Source: Alphaproteobacteria bacterium (GTDB lineage Bacteria > Pseudomonadota > Alphaproteobacteria > ATCC43930 > CGMCC-115725). From it: a stretch of 48,413 nucleotides of DNA. Shown here one piece after another: positions 1 through 3,653 of the stretch (the stretch's first letter is position 1; each line of letters opens with the position of its first letter). The notes beneath the pieces are model-generated. The model was not told the origin of the DNA and made no database searches. It saw only the letters and a list, made by a program, of their open reading frames with translations. The translations under genes and the position numbers were made by a program. The stretch is taken from the NCBI GenBank assembly GCA_030041335.1, contig JASHOB010000126.1, forward strand, positions 1 to 48,413, read 5' to 3'.

Positions 1-390
1 TCAGAATTGAACATGGGGCTTCTCCCGTGTTTGTTGCGGCAATGGTGGTCTTTGCAAATGGTCGCGATGCCTCTCTAACGCAGCGCGCCAGTGAGCAAAG
101 CGAAGCCCGACACTTTCATAAGCCTGAATTCAAGTTCAGCAAATGCAGCACCAAGCGCGGGATGCGTTCTTTAAGAGTGTTCGAAATTGCCCCTTCGTAG
201 TGCGCGCAATCGTCGTCAAAAAGGCGCTCATCTATTCACCGCGGGGCGGTTTCCTGCGGGACATTTGCCAATTTGAGCTGTGAGAACGAGACGGGAACAC
301 AATGATCATTAGTTAACTTTTAATGAAACTACTGGAAGGCGCGAAACGTCCGCTGCATTCTACTGCCCATATCCGAATACCCCCAACTCT

Positions 391-419
391 GCCCCTGGTT
401 TTGCCAGGGGCTTCTTTTT
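391..419 (+). terminator. Intrinsic terminator 1 of a twin pair
   Basis: A perfect 8-bp stem (GCCCCTGG at 391-398, CCAGGGGC at 404-411) closes a 5-base loop, TTTTG, and is followed by a T-rich tract at 412-419. This is the classic Rho-independent form on the plus strand. No convincing protein gene lies upstream in the window, so it either ends a gene that starts before the window or a small RNA. A second copy with the same 5' arm and loop sits 137 bases downstream. Confidence 0.8.
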
Positions 420-441
420 CCCGTCACTCTTCCTATGTTTA

Positions 442-466
442 ATCTGAATCATTCGTTAAATCAGAT
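442..466. repeat. Inverted repeat just upstream of the sigma-54-like promoter
   Basis: ATCTGA at 442-447 and its exact reverse complement TCAGAT at 461-466 flank a 13-base AT-rich spacer. The right arm ends four bases before the promoter element at 471. Position suggests a protein-binding site acting on that promoter, but activators of sigma-54 promoters usually bind farther upstream, so a repressor site or chance are also possible. Confidence 0.35.
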
Positions 467-470
467 GGCA

Positions 471-485
471 TGGCACGTTCATTGC
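471..485 (+). promoter_or_regulatory. Sigma-54 (RpoN) type -24/-12 promoter
   Basis: TGGCACG at 471-477, four bases, then TTGC at 482-485 matches the sigma-54 consensus TGGCACG-N4-TTGC. The invariant GG (472-473) and GC (484-485) are separated by exactly ten bases, as that sigma factor requires. Transcription would start near 497 on the plus strand and run into the terminator at 528-558. The match is read directly from sequence; activity is inferred. Confidence 0.6.
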
Positions 486-496
486 CTCCTAATGGA

Positions 497-558
497 TGTG
501 AGCGTTTCATGGTTCCTCCACTTCCTAGCCCCTGGTTTTGCCGGGGGCTTTTTCTTTT
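497..558 (+). ncRNA. Candidate short RNA between sigma-54 promoter and terminator
   Basis: If the -24/-12 element at 471-485 is active, transcription from about 497 would stop at the hairpin and T-tract ending near 558, giving an RNA of about 60 nt. There is no ribosome-binding site or open frame of useful length inside. The 3' half is the terminator stem. This is inference from the promoter-terminator arrangement alone; no known RNA family is recognised. Confidence 0.35.
528..558 (+). terminator. Intrinsic terminator 2 of a twin pair
   Basis: Stem GCCCCTGG (528-535) pairs with CCGGGGGC (541-548) through one G-T wobble, around the same TTTTG loop as the copy at 391-411, and is followed by a long T-rich tract (549-558). 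The shared arm and loop suggest that the two terminators descend from a local duplication. Confidence 0.8.
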
Positions 559-758
559 CCGCAGCCCACCTTCTGTACACTCGCCGCACAGATCCATCGG
601 CCCTTATGTGATTTGACGAAGCAGTGTAGCGGCGTCACGAGTCAGACACACTCCAAACTAGAACATTACCCCCCAAAACTGGAGTTTCTGGGTTATCGCG
701 ATAACTGGAGTTCCTCGGCCGCCGGCCTCCAATCCCGACGGGCGGCCGATTTTTGCCT

Positions 759-998
759 TTAACCATTGCCTTTGCCTATCTCAGCCTTAGCCCGCTGCAC
801 CGCCGGCAATAGCTCCGCCCAATCATCGGGACTCTTGATCAGCTTGAGCTGCAATTCGGCAATCCGCTTCTCCCATTCGCGGTTGATTCCCGGTTCGCGG
901 ATCTGCTCGTCTAGCGCCATTCGCACAACTAGCTCATCATATGGCTTAAGACTGGCAAGCCAGCGCGTGAATTTTGGGGATACATAGAAAGGGCGCAT
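759..998 (-). CDS. Small hypothetical protein
   Basis: A 79-residue reading frame with ordinary, mostly charged and hydrophilic composition: helix-favouring stretches around residues 15-35 and 40-75 (many E, K, R, L), no membrane segment and no signal peptide. I do not recognise a family. The ATG at 998 has only a weak GGAG about 15 bases upstream, so translation initiation is not well supported. The opposite strand is also open over most of the span, but its product is serine-rich and low in complexity, so the minus frame is preferred. It may be a genuine orphan or a fragment of a longer ancestral gene. Confidence 0.45.
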   Translation of the reverse strand: MRPFYVSPKFTRWLASLKPYDELVVRMALDEQIREPGINREWEKRIAELQLKLIKSPDDWAELLPAVQRAKAEIGKGNG

Positions 999-1395
999 CG
1001 CGGCCGATATTGACTCCGCCGCCGACTAATCGCCAAACGGGCGAGACTTAACTTCCATCCTGTGCACACTCACGACTATGAAAACGTGCCACCAGCGTCA
1101 ATCGCGGATCCGGCCTGTTGGAGTTGGAATTGACGCCGGCGGCAAAGTTTCCCGAGCTGGTTGGGGAAGGACCAATCGAGGAAGGTCCACTCGGGGTTAT
1201 GATGATTGGGCGGATTGCCGTCTGCTCATCCCTCAATTTTCGGCTTCTGGGCGATCAACTCTTTCGTGCGGCGCCGGGAGAGAGCGAAGCCAACGCCGAA
1301 ATTTGGGCGCGGTATAGAAGGTGCGTCGCGTCACTTCGTGATTTTGCTTCGTGCCCGCTTTCGTGAATTTTGCCTCTGCGCGCACCATTGGCTTG
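999..1395. other. Intergenic stretch without a recognised gene
   Basis: About 400 bases between two small minus-strand genes. Several short overlapping frames exist on both strands (for example 1118-1366 plus, from a TTG), but none has a good ribosome-binding site or a recognisable product. No hairpin with a T-tract and no promoter pair stood out. Confidence 0.5.
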
Positions 1396-1617
1396 TCAAA
1401 CACGTTGGAAGGACCCTCTCAACCGACCACATAGGTATCCCGTGACGGGCAATAGGAGAAGCAATGCGTCTTGGTTCACTTCATAAAACGAAAAGGGGTC
1501 ATTCAAGTCCAGCAACAAAAAAACGCAAAGCAGCACGATCCCGATACCGCTTATCGCTATCAGCAAACACGTCAGATAAAGCCGGACCAAGTAACGTTCG
1601 AGGTATTCGGTGGACAT
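1396..1617 (-). CDS. Small two-helix membrane protein, hypothetical
   Basis: A 73-residue product starting at the ATG at 1617. That start is chosen over an upstream one because a purine-rich GAGGGGGGATG-type ribosome-binding site lies just before it. Residues about 13-36 form a strongly hydrophobic segment (TCLLIAISGIGIVLLCVFLL) and residues about 48-60 a second (LLLLLPVTGYLCG), followed by a basic tail with several arginines. The layout fits an inner-membrane peptide with a short periplasmic loop and both ends in the cytoplasm. I recognise no family and the neighbours give no functional hint. It stands alone on the minus strand. Confidence 0.6.
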   Translation of the reverse strand: MSTEYLERYLVRLYLTCLLIAISGIGIVLLCVFLLLDLNDPFSFYEVNQDALLLLLPVTGYLCGRLRGSFQRV

Positions 1618-1893
1618 TGCGTCATCCCCCCTCTGTGAGGTGATGAGGCTAGCACCTGGGCAGATTTCTAAACCAATCACGATGCCGCCCGGATTAAGAA
1701 TGTGATTGCCAGAGCCATGCGCGATCAGTTCCTCGCGCGGCGAAAGGCTCAGCGGCGGAATTTGGGAGATGAGTAGAACGCGCGCATGGCTGAAATGCGT
1801 TTTCTGTTAGCCCAAACGTTACCCCGACCTCCAACCGCTATTCTCTTATCGTATTGGCAGCGTTGGTAGCCAGCCTAAGTCATTGATTTAATT

Positions 1894-1980
1894 TGGTGCC
1901 CGCTGCCGGAATCGAACCGGCACGGCCTTTCGGCCAAGGGATTTTAAGTCCCTTGCGTCTACCAGTTCCGCCAAGCGGGC
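1894..1980 (-). tRNA. tRNA-Leu (anticodon TAA)
   Basis: Read on the minus strand, the 5' arm GCCCGCT pairs perfectly with AGCGGGC before ACCA, so the CCA end is encoded (1894-1896). The D-arm region reads GGCGGAACTGGTAGACGC, the anticodon stem-loop is AGGGA-CTTAAAA-TCCCT with anticodon TAA, a long variable arm (TTGGCCGAAAGGCCGT) marks it as a class II tRNA, and the T-arm loop is GGTTCGATTCC. The total of 87 nt including CCA is usual for tRNA-Leu. It decodes UUA, a rare codon in a GC-rich genome. It lies 13 bases downstream of the cinA-like stop codon on the same strand. Confidence 0.97.
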
Positions 1981-1993
1981 TCTTCCCCCATTC

Positions 1994-2752
1994 CTATAGC
2001 TCGGTCGGCTTGCCGCCAAGACTCCGCACCAGTTCCACCACCTCACCGACCGCATCGGCCAGGCGGGCGGTATTGGTACCGCGCAGCACGAGATTGGTCT
2101 CGGGCGCACCGCGGCCGAAAGTCGGATAAGAGCCGATGTCCAACTCGGGATAGCGGGCCTGGATTTCCCCCAGGCCTTTCGCGACGACACCCTCGGCCAA
2201 GGGACAGTTGACCGTGCGCGACAGAATAGGTGGGCCGCCATTGAGCTCGTGGCGGATGGCATCGAACATGCCTTGCATGATGCGCGGCACGCCGGCCATC
2301 ACAATGACGTTCCCGATACGAAAGCCCGGCGGACCCTGGATCGGGTTTGGCACCAGTGATGCGCCCTGAGGCGTGTACGCCATGCGCAGTCGCGCCTCGT
2401 TGAGCCCGCCGGGCGGATAGCGCTTCAGCATCATGCGGTGAATTTCCTCGTTGAGCACTAGCGGCACGCTGAAGGCGCGCGCAATGCATTCGGCGGTGAT
2501 GTCATCATGGGTCGGGCCAATGCCGCCGGTGGTGAAAACATAATCATATTTCGCACGCACCCCATTGACGGTGGCGACAATAATGTCGGCGTTATCCGGA
2601 ATCACCCGCGCCTCCATCAGCCGAACACCCCGCTCGGCCAATCCCTTGGCGATGTAGTTGAGATTCACGTCCTGAGTCCGTCCCGACAGGATTTCGTTGC
2701 CAATAACCAGAACGCATGCAGTCGGCGCCCTCTGGGCGGCGGTATCGCTCAT
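1994..2752 (-). CDS. CinA-like molybdopterin-binding domain protein
   Basis: The 252-residue product is a stand-alone MoaB/Mog-fold domain of the competence/damage-inducible CinA N-terminal type. Visible hallmarks are the start VLVIGNEILSGRTQDVN (about residues 14-30), the conserved TTGGIGPTHDD loop (about 74-84) that binds nucleotide or pterin in this fold, and the GVPRIM segment near 164-169. It lacks the C-terminal nicotinamide-nucleotide amidase domain of full-length CinA (over 400 residues). Such short versions occur in many proteobacteria and their substrate is not settled; FAD/ADP-ribose pyrophosphatase-type activity has been described for the family. It is transcribed divergently from map, sharing a 76-base intergenic region, with the tRNA-Leu downstream. 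Confidence 0.85.
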   Translation of the reverse strand: MSDTAAQRAPTACVLVIGNEILSGRTQDVNLNYIAKGLAERGVRLMEARVIPDNADIIVATVNGVRAKYDYVFTTGGIGPTHDDITAECIARAFSVPLVLNEEIHRMMLKRYPPGGLNEARLRMAYTPQGASLVPNPIQGPPGFRIGNVIVMAGVPRIMQGMFDAIRHELNGGPPILSRTVNCPLAEGVVAKGLGEIQARYPELDIGSYPTFGRGAPETNLVLRGTNTARLADAVGEVVELVRSLGGKPTEL

Positions 2753-2786
2753 TCCCGTTCCTCAAGAGACTGGATGTGTGAACATG

Positions 2787-2821
2787 CTAGGCTTGCTACT
2801 CTCGCCATGAAAGCCTAGATA
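2787..2821 (+). promoter_or_regulatory. map promoter overlapped by a perfect inverted repeat
   Basis: TTGCTA (2793-2798) and TAGATA (2816-2821) are separated by 17 bases, a good sigma-70-like pair that would start transcription near 2828. CTAGGCTT (2787-2794) and its exact reverse complement AAGCCTAG (2811-2818) flank a 16-base spacer and overlap the -35 and -10 elements, so a dimeric regulator bound there would block polymerase. The palindrome is seen directly; the regulator is unknown. Confidence 0.45.
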
Positions 2822-2828
2822 TCGCTAC

Positions 2829-3653
2829 ATGAATCTGGGCATGACGGCTTCCCGGGCAGACAGCGAAGCTCGGCGCATCAAAATTCATACCGCAGCGGAC
2901 TTCGAGGGCATGCGCAAGGCAGGAAGGCTCGCCGCCGAAGTGCTTGACTTCATCACGCCCTATGTTGTGCCTGGCGTCACCACTGAACGGCTTAATCAGC
3001 TCTGCCACGATTACATCATTCAGCATGGGGCCATACCGGCGCCGCTCAACTATCGCGGCTTCCCCAAGTCGGTCTGTATTTCCATAAACCATGTTGTGTG
3101 TCACGGCATCCCCGGCGACCGCAAGCTGATGGACGGCGATATCCTCAATATCGACGTAACGCCGATTCTTGACAGTTGGCATGGCGACTCAAGCCGTATG
3201 TATTTCGCGGGTGATAATGTCGGCGTCAAGGCGAGGAAACTCGTAGACGTCACCCATGAGGCGATGATGCGCGGTATCGCGGCGGTGCGGCCGGGCGGCT
3301 TCCTTGGTGATGTCGGCGAGGCGATCCAAACTTTCGCCGAGGCCAACCGTTTCTCCGTTGTACGCGATTTTTGCGGGCACGGTGTCGGACGCGTTTTCCA
3401 TGATGCGCCGTCGGTGCTTCACTACGGCCGGCGCGGCGAGGGCGTCGAATTGCGCGAAGGCATGTTCTTTACCATCGAACCCATGATCAATGCCGGCCGC
3501 TGGGAAGTTAAGGTACTGAACGACGGCTGGACCGCCGTCACCAAGGACCGCTCGCTCTCGGCGCAGTTCGAGCACATGGTCGGCGTTACCGGGGACGGCT
3601 GCGAAATCTTCACCCTGTCGCCCAAGGGTTGGCATAAGCCGCCCTACGTGTGA
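2829..3653 (+). CDS. map: Methionine aminopeptidase, type I
   Basis: This cytosolic metallo-enzyme removes the initiator methionine from new proteins. The 274-residue product has the pita-bread fold signature: metal ligands D109, D120, H184, E217 and E248, with catalytic H92 in the CHGIP-preceding SINHVVCHG segment. The spacing matches the E. coli enzyme with an offset of about 12-13. There is no N-terminal zinc-finger extension. The ATG at 2829 has no ribosome-binding site, and the predicted transcription start is almost at the codon, so translation may be leaderless; a second in-frame ATG at 2841 is an alternative. The gene is divergent from the cinA-like gene. The 245 bases downstream hold no recognisable gene; radC, a frequent neighbour of map in this class, is not visible. 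Confidence 0.95.
   Translation: MNLGMTASRADSEARRIKIHTAADFEGMRKAGRLAAEVLDFITPYVVPGVTTERLNQLCHDYIIQHGAIPAPLNYRGFPKSVCISINHVVCHGIPGDRKLMDGDILNIDVTPILDSWHGDSSRMYFAGDNVGVKARKLVDVTHEAMMRGIAAVRPGGFLGDVGEAIQTFAEANRFSVVRDFCGHGVGRVFHDAPSVLHYGRRGEGVELREGMFFTIEPMINAGRWEVKVLNDGWTAVTKDRSLSAQFEHMVGVTGDGCEIFTLSPKGWHKPPYV

Follow-up and report, generated by a model that had tools for sequence, protein, structure and literature searches.

The stretch of DNA analysed here (the window, 48,413 nucleotides of contig JASHOB010000126.1 from an Alphaproteobacteria bacterium) harbors, at about positions 467–558 of its forward strand, what we would tentatively, and with somewhat less than even confidence, explain best as a duplicated gene encoding a short RNA that acts in trans by base pairing, in the style of MmgR (alpha-r8). 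Judging from its sequence, such an RNA would open with a hairpin and close with an intrinsic terminator, and between the two a C/U-rich stretch containing UUCCUCC would be left unpaired; it would bind the Shine-Dalgarno (SD)/start-codon regions of mRNAs, blocking their translation in the manner of AbcR and NfeR1, with the front of the gene serving as a perfect sigma-54 element and as the left arm of the hairpin at once. An RNA of about 85–90 nt that includes the hairpin and starts at about 467–474 seems most likely. An earlier note, made from the letters alone, had read the same place as a sigma-54 promoter driving a small RNA of about 60 nt; a terminator-ended RNA gene is still the best reading and the motif is credible (RpoN, other sites in the genome, a 10/11 counterpart on contig C93), but the proposed length is doubtful, because the hairpin, which both copies retain, has its first paired base at 474, within the proposed promoter.

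Features of the candidate gene

391 to 411, forward strand: another terminator upstream of the gene's own, the stem of which it closely resembles; 88% identical to the 527–549 terminator region
439 to 510, reverse strand: a 23-codon open reading frame (ORF) with the SD GGAGG (MKRSHPLGGNERAMPSDLTNDSD) and the start GGAGG-AACC-ATG, probably no gene
456 to 461, forward strand: TTAAAT, a possible −10 box (by eye, without a matching −35) for a start near 467–470
471 to 485, forward strand: sigma-54 −24/−12-like element TGGCACG-N4-TTGC (TGGCACGTTCATTGC), matching exactly (11/11) here and 10/11 in C93
474 to 500, forward strand: hairpin with arms 474–483 and 491–500, 10 pairs and the loop GCCTCCT, overlapping the −24/−12 element
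477 to 564, forward strand: sub-threshold match to Rfam RF00519 (suhB / MmgR, alpha-r8), 30.7 bits against a gathering cut-off of 41
504 to 523, forward strand: the stretch GTTTCATGGTTCCTCCACTT with the anti-SD core UUCCUCC (513–519), 19/20 identical in C93
527 to 558, forward strand: intrinsic terminator, stem 527–549, T-rich tail to 558, the stem being kept in C93

The sigma-54-like element

The element at 471–485 has, just as the earlier note had described, the GG-N10-GC spacing and all of the 11 specified bases, and the sigma-54 start predicted from it lies at about 497; its C93 counterpart reads CGGCACGTCCATTGC. That such a match is rare by chance is true per site and less so per window, as the exact pattern, which occurs once in the window, was found at least once in 5 out of 100 dinucleotide-shuffled windows, and at least two matches with no more than one mismatch, as present in the window, were found in 48 out of 100. 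Throughout the genome (5,173,962 bases in 262 contigs), 7 exact elements were counted versus 3 for a reversed control pattern, so perhaps about half of them are real. Of the six other exact elements, one stands 45 nt upstream of a cyanase gene (TIGR00673, 144.8 bits, above the cut-off) and one, following a gene for an NMT1_2 protein, 123 nt upstream of a NarK-like MFS gene (TIGR00886, 279.5 bits, below the cut-off of 311.7). Two more lie 52 nt upstream of a transglutaminase/DUF2126 gene and 99 nt upstream of a LysR-type gene, respectively, and the remaining two overlap ORFs at their first codons, all of these ORF starts being mechanical assignments. Cyanate and nitrate use are typical targets of nitrogen control. 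As RpoN itself is encoded in the genome (C68:19035-19511, PF04552, 222.1 bits) and exact copies precede the cyanase and nitrate-transporter-like genes, the motif appears credible in this genome. According to PMC3616915, 112 start sites in S. meliloti carry predicted RpoN motifs. A search for NtrC/NifA enhancer sites upstream of the window gene or its C93 copy yielded only NtrC-type hits with 2 mismatches (about 0.36 expected per 300 bases), the scan being one of little power that found none at the cyanase site either.

A second copy on contig C93

The candidate gene is duplicated within this genome: BLAST aligns window 472–596 with C93:5445-5569 at 83% identity, and further matches on the same contig to window 602–672 (71 bases, 83%) and 796–842 (47 bases, 81%) indicate that a larger piece was duplicated. 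Since the RNA part is no better conserved than these flanking pieces, its identity alone is no sign of selection. Upstream of 472, no colinear similarity between the window and C93 was found by BLAST; it starts right at the −24 GG, and the differences between the copies are distributed unevenly (1 in the 14 positions of 472–485, 6 in the 12 of 486–497 and 2 in the 26 of 498–523), a pattern that fits a sigma-54 promoter whose spacer is free to vary and, equally, a hairpin whose loop is.

A hairpin overlapping the element

The left arm of the hairpin (474–483) lies inside the −24/−12 element, and the same 10-pair stem can be drawn in both copies (CACGUUCAUU/AAUGGAUGUG against CACGUCCAUU/GGUGGACGUG): all 10 pairs form in each, and the 4 pairs that vary between the window and C93 do so on one side only and are all still paired. 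When the partners were displaced by 1–3 columns, with both helices taken together, 37–46% of the cells paired versus 100% for the true arrangement; when changes of like number and kind were placed at random, the 10 pairs survived in 1.07% (starting from the window) or 0.93% (starting from C93) of cases, and with the changed positions fixed, in about 6% of trials. The conservation of the stem rests on two copies, and a shuffle control is powerless with two sequences (500/500 reach the observed values). As for stem length by chance in a 104-base stretch, the 11 pairs of the window were reached in 16 out of 2000 shuffles, and the 10 pairs of C93 in 52 out of 2000. Folds of 33 bases (472–504 in the window) agree with the 10-pair hairpin, with 7/200 and 2/200 shuffles folding equally well, whereas longer folds of the window give an imperfect longer hairpin instead (475–482 with 498–505 and 470–473 with 507–510); in longer folds of C93 the 10-pair stem is retained and outer pairs are added.

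Terminator and open reading frames

The intrinsic terminator that had been placed some 60 bases downstream of the element is indeed there, with 10 pairs (7 of them G-C) at 527–549 followed by TTTTTCTTTTC; a scan of window 1–3000 gave 5 terminator-like sites, the shuffle mean being 3.6, and terminators similar to that of this gene recur in the genome at 391–411 and on contigs C192 and C55 (82–89% identity). The accompanying claim that there is no room for a protein can be retained in part: no forward-strand ORF of at least 60 aa lies between 471 and 537 (a listed one, 538–762, starts inside the terminator), but shorter frames do exist, namely, one from the ATG at 492 on the forward strand, open for at least 39 codons and passing through the terminator, and the reverse-strand one at 510–439.

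The terminator at 391–411 is possibly the end of a separate upstream RNA, and its similarity to the one at 527–549 hints at a further short transcript whose end would lie about 60 nt upstream of this gene; the fold of window 300–422 has a z of −2.80, and weak MicF and PrrF matches extend over window 288–419.

Resemblance to MmgR (alpha-r8)

The expectation that the RNA would be without a described family was not supported, as it shows a resemblance to alpha-r8/MmgR (RF00519), a family with a member in Sinorhizobium that is reported to be induced by NtrC. In a search of 561 bases with all families, the RF00519 match had an E of 2e-4 and headed the 9 matches listed for window 200–760 at E ≤ 10; its E was 4.2e-4 when the whole genome was searched with RF00519 alone. 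Within this genome it ranked third of 17 at E ≤ 10 (66.4, 57.2, 30.7, then 18.6 bits), with 150 of 290 first-look candidates scored, and the C93 copy obtained 18.2 bits, neither copy thus reaching the gathering cut-off of 41 bits. Anti-hemB also weakly matches window 473–556 (22.8 bits, E 0.0047). Alpha-r8 RNAs, as described in PMC12559287, comprise a weak hairpin, the ten-base single-stranded UUUCCUCCCU and a terminator; the window has a hairpin 5' of the core and a Rho-independent terminator, and the core itself is incomplete (GUUCCUCCAC, with UUCCUCC only). All 14 control genomes matched RF00519 at E ≤ 10, and 3 of them (Caulobacter, Synechococcus and Thermus) at E ≤ 0.01, one above the cut-off, and a different RNA from the same bacterial family reached 33.5 bits. 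As control genomes and a different RNA also score near 30 bits, the similarity is suggestive and not proof, and, since both the score and the full core fall short, the window RNA is to be regarded, by its sequence features, as MmgR-like and not as a member of alpha-r8.

In the bacterial family, RF00519 is matched at E ≤ 0.01 in 39/39 genomes and above the cut-off in 38. At 29 such loci from other genomes of the family, the hairpin, core and terminator were seen by eye, as was, commonly, a TTGAC/TAAAT-type promoter, often accompanied, close to the start, by a TTGTGCAGTGCGG-like element. Only one of the 29 has a sigma-54 element scoring as high as 9/11 (1.3% of shuffles reach at least 9), with none better, and in 20 there is no GG-N10-GC within 95 bases before the core. 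In Caulobacter, alpha-r8 siblings have unrelated promoters, and extra copies stand also elsewhere than at the usual neighbour, as PMC12559287 reports. That neighbour, N-formylglutamate amidohydrolase, was not seen on the right side of the window gene, where the nearest proteins with Pfam matches above the cut-off are MoCF_biosynth/FLAD1_M and Peptidase_M24 (two intervening small ORFs have none); the left neighbour lies beyond the start of the contig.

Many alpha-r8 genes of the bacterial family (L054, L063, L067, L069, L072, L075-L078 and others, by eye) carry the TTGTGCAGTGCGG-like element at their start, and it is similar to the PhaR motif, the PhaR/AniA site, that PMC12542648 reports for mmgR of S. 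meliloti, which may point to an ancient PHB link. A GCACGTTC shared by the window and the alpha-r8 gene on contig C255 is absent in the copies of two congeners and was treated as chance.

For MmgR of S. meliloti, PMC7143759 describes induction by NtrC and repression by AniA, and lists predicted RpoD and RpoN motifs. By analogy, the MmgR-like RNA of the window is possibly under nitrogen control, too.

Distribution in other genomes

A BLAST search of 61 genomes with window 300–600 (E ≤ 0.001) returned the own genome only, and one of 39 genomes with window 465–600 (E ≤ 0.1) added short pieces in 4 others (E 0.02–0.07). A covariance model (R2) run at E ≤ 1 on the 39 genomes of the bacterial family recovered the two copies in the own genome (E 1.6e-22 and 3.6e-21), a weak hit on contig C55 (4.7e-4) and matches in 9 others, the best of which had an E of 0.0096 (G029) and 0.0141 (G012); in 43 genomes of the order (the own and 42 others), only the own genome and the same weak G029 hit (E 0.0096) were found at E ≤ 0.01. 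The matches, 12 of which were re-scored and 10 viewed as alignments, were mostly led by the terminator or represented a different RNA (G012); the G029 hit (76% G+C) has CCUCCACU and most of the stem pairs. An exact search with the 20-base seed pattern gave 0 matches in both genome_contigs and viral_contigs (the own genome's records were perhaps left out), and R2 found 1 match (E 0.54) among 80 loci around the neighbouring M24 peptidase gene, whose best relatives, among those listed from named genomes, show 76% identity and come from alphaproteobacterial metagenome assemblies. Within the genomes searched, no convincing relative was found outside this genome, although three congener genomes are 61–80% complete, which makes absence there weak evidence. 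Taken on its sequence features, this is probably a real, lineage-restricted, two-copy MmgR-like small RNA.

Anti-Shine-Dalgarno stretch and a candidate target

The block at 504–523 is complementary to an SD and start codon (GGAGGAACCATGAAA). When the genome was searched for its 18-base complement, allowing at most 3 mismatches, 4 sites turned up besides 2 self hits (1 for the reversed control), and one of the non-self sites is the start of a Glu_synthase gene (PF01645, 277.5 bits), whose start region GGAGGAGCCATGAAACG could form 17 contiguous pairs with the RNA, one of them G-U. The duplex of 501–526 with this start was computed at −40.4 versus −33.4 for the best of 500 letter shuffles, for a site that was picked post hoc and with SD-like complements being favoured in any case; the Glu_synthase-family mRNA as a target is a lead only.

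Start site and competing readings

The RNA may either start at about 467–474, with the sigma-54 motif being coincidental or secondary, or have a sigma-54 start at 497, and we are leaning to the form with the hairpin. For the former, TTAAAT at 456–461 would be the −10 box and has a suitable position, and TTAAAT/CTAAAT boxes also precede several alpha-r8 genes of the bacterial family (by eye); no convincing −35 could be seen by eye in the window, nor a −10 or −35 in C93, and the count of sigma-70 consensus sites in window 1–3000 was 0. That the sigma-54 element is used at all, alone or as a second start near 497 yielding a 60-nt form without the hairpin, seems nearly, though not quite, an even prospect.

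An unlikely reading, albeit the strongest of the rivals, has a sigma-54 polymerase with an enhancer-binding protein starting at about 497 and producing an RNA of about 60 nt (seed and terminator), the hairpin then being either a DNA site for a regulator or a dyad that arose by chance. In its favour are the scores of the element in both copies, colinear similarity beginning at the −24 GG, the clustering of copy differences in 486–497 and the presence in the genome of RpoN and of further such elements at plausible nitrogen genes. A transcript from 497, however, would be without the hairpin, since the latter begins inside the element, and yet that hairpin is kept in both copies via pair-preserving changes; moreover, the alpha-r8 match begins at 477, the (low-power) enhancer scan found no site, and the alpha-r8 genes of the bacterial family are without such elements, save for the single 9/11 case.

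It is rather improbable that there is no functional RNA here and that a chance motif and a generic terminator are seen in a mosaic of duplicated, decaying intergenic DNA, even if the exact motif turned up in 5 of the 100 shuffled windows, similar terminators recur, several duplicated patches are common to this region and contigs C93, C193 and C109, and no convincing homologue was found among the 38 other genomes of the family. Against such a reading stand the preservation of the hairpin across two diverged copies, the near-identity of the seed block and an Rfam score above the genome's other sub-threshold scores.

We give little credence to a two-form RNA, in which transcription from a housekeeping start near 468 would give a form protected by the 5' hairpin and a sigma-54 start inside the hairpin a 60-nt form without it, the nitrogen state thereby altering the structure of the RNA and not just its amount. 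Finally, the conserved block being a minus-strand gene for a small protein is highly improbable, for although a perfect SD-spacer-start is present in both copies (the block's one change swaps ATG for GTG in C93), a translated search with the C93 frame hits the window (59% identity, E 8.6e-9, one internal stop), which is expected from DNA similarity alone, and, by eye, a few of the differences in 602–672 leave the amino acid unchanged in one minus-strand frame, the frame has only 23 codons in the window and 46 in C93, its 9 differences are spread 4/3/2 over codon positions 1/2/3, which is not coding-like, the long C93 frame has no Pfam/NCBIfam match at E ≤ 1, and the T-tract of the terminator is on the forward strand.

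Returning to the MmgR-style RNA gene, the use of the element would matter either way. If used, an MmgR-like RNA would be wired directly to RpoN, the nitrogen control that has been reported for Sinorhizobium MmgR would gain a basis in sequence, and one stretch of DNA would be both promoter and RNA hairpin, an unusual case; if not, it is a warning that a perfect −24/−12 match can sit within an RNA's own stem.

Neighbouring repeats and other RNAs

600 to 757, forward strand: repeat unit, with further copies on C93 (L107:5615-5750), C193 (L203:2104-2240, reverse strand) and, twice, C109 (L204:1975-2102 and 1701-1803, reverse strand)
1894 to 1980, reverse strand: tRNA-Leu (UAA), between the RNA region and the MoCF_biosynth gene
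L083, L084, L085, L086, L087, L089, L091, L092, L094, L096, L097 and L108: loci of the AGAGGGTCTNCGGACCCTTACGTCTCCCAGACGTGAAGCCTCCCTGTTCA-ACT RNA in other genomes

The repeat unit downstream, present in five copies in this genome, is made up of a promoter-like block (TGATTTGACGA-G...GGC-TC-CGA), a variable middle, a GC-rich hairpin and a T-rich tail. No Rfam match was found within 608–757 at E ≤ 10, and in the 38 other genomes of the family (E ≤ 0.01) there were short matches in 14, all to the terminator part except for one of 22 bases (G019); these comparisons make it look like an RNA gene or element that is multi-copy and specific to this genome. Window 1126–1247 matches C193:1659-1779 at 92.6% identity and is among several duplicated patches that this region shares with that contig.

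A conserved RNA of about AGAGGGTCTNCGGACCCTTACGTCTCCCAGACGTGAAGCCTCCCTGTTCA-ACT and a terminator was seen at 12 loci in 12 genomes, covering 8 of the 11 genera of the family, with no clear copy in the own genome. Four of the five loci scanned were sub-threshold to MmgR and SorX, and the fifth gave nothing at E ≤ 1; by sequence, this may be an RNA family that Rfam does not yet list.

Comparison with known systems

The window RNA is like MmgR and the SisA-D RNAs of alpha-r8 in its similar size (MmgR being 77 nt), in the order of a 5' hairpin, a UUCCUCC anti-SD stretch and a Rho-independent terminator, and in occurring in more than one copy per genome, as alpha-r8 does in some species. It differs in scoring below the cut-off, in its incomplete core, in its longer hairpin, in being found in a single genome and in its front, which is unlike the sigma-70-type promoters of the family members (by eye). 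AbcR1/2 (alpha-r15) and NfeR1 (alpha-r14), as presented in PMC7143759, similarly target mRNA start regions with unpaired anti-SD motifs, but AbcR1/2 are 120 and 114 nt long with three hairpins, and NfeR1 has three hairpins as well; no such family was among the 9 matches listed for window 200–760 at E ≤ 10. As to regulation, the start site of the window RNA is a prediction, the low-power scan gave no convincing enhancer site, and it is by description, not by sequence, that it is likened to small RNAs under sigma-54. The Qrr RNAs are sigma-54-dependent small RNAs that receive their signal via an enhancer-binding protein. NrsZ of Pseudomonas, according to PMC8395346, is likewise a small RNA under sigma-54, responding to a nitrogen signal with NtrB/C.
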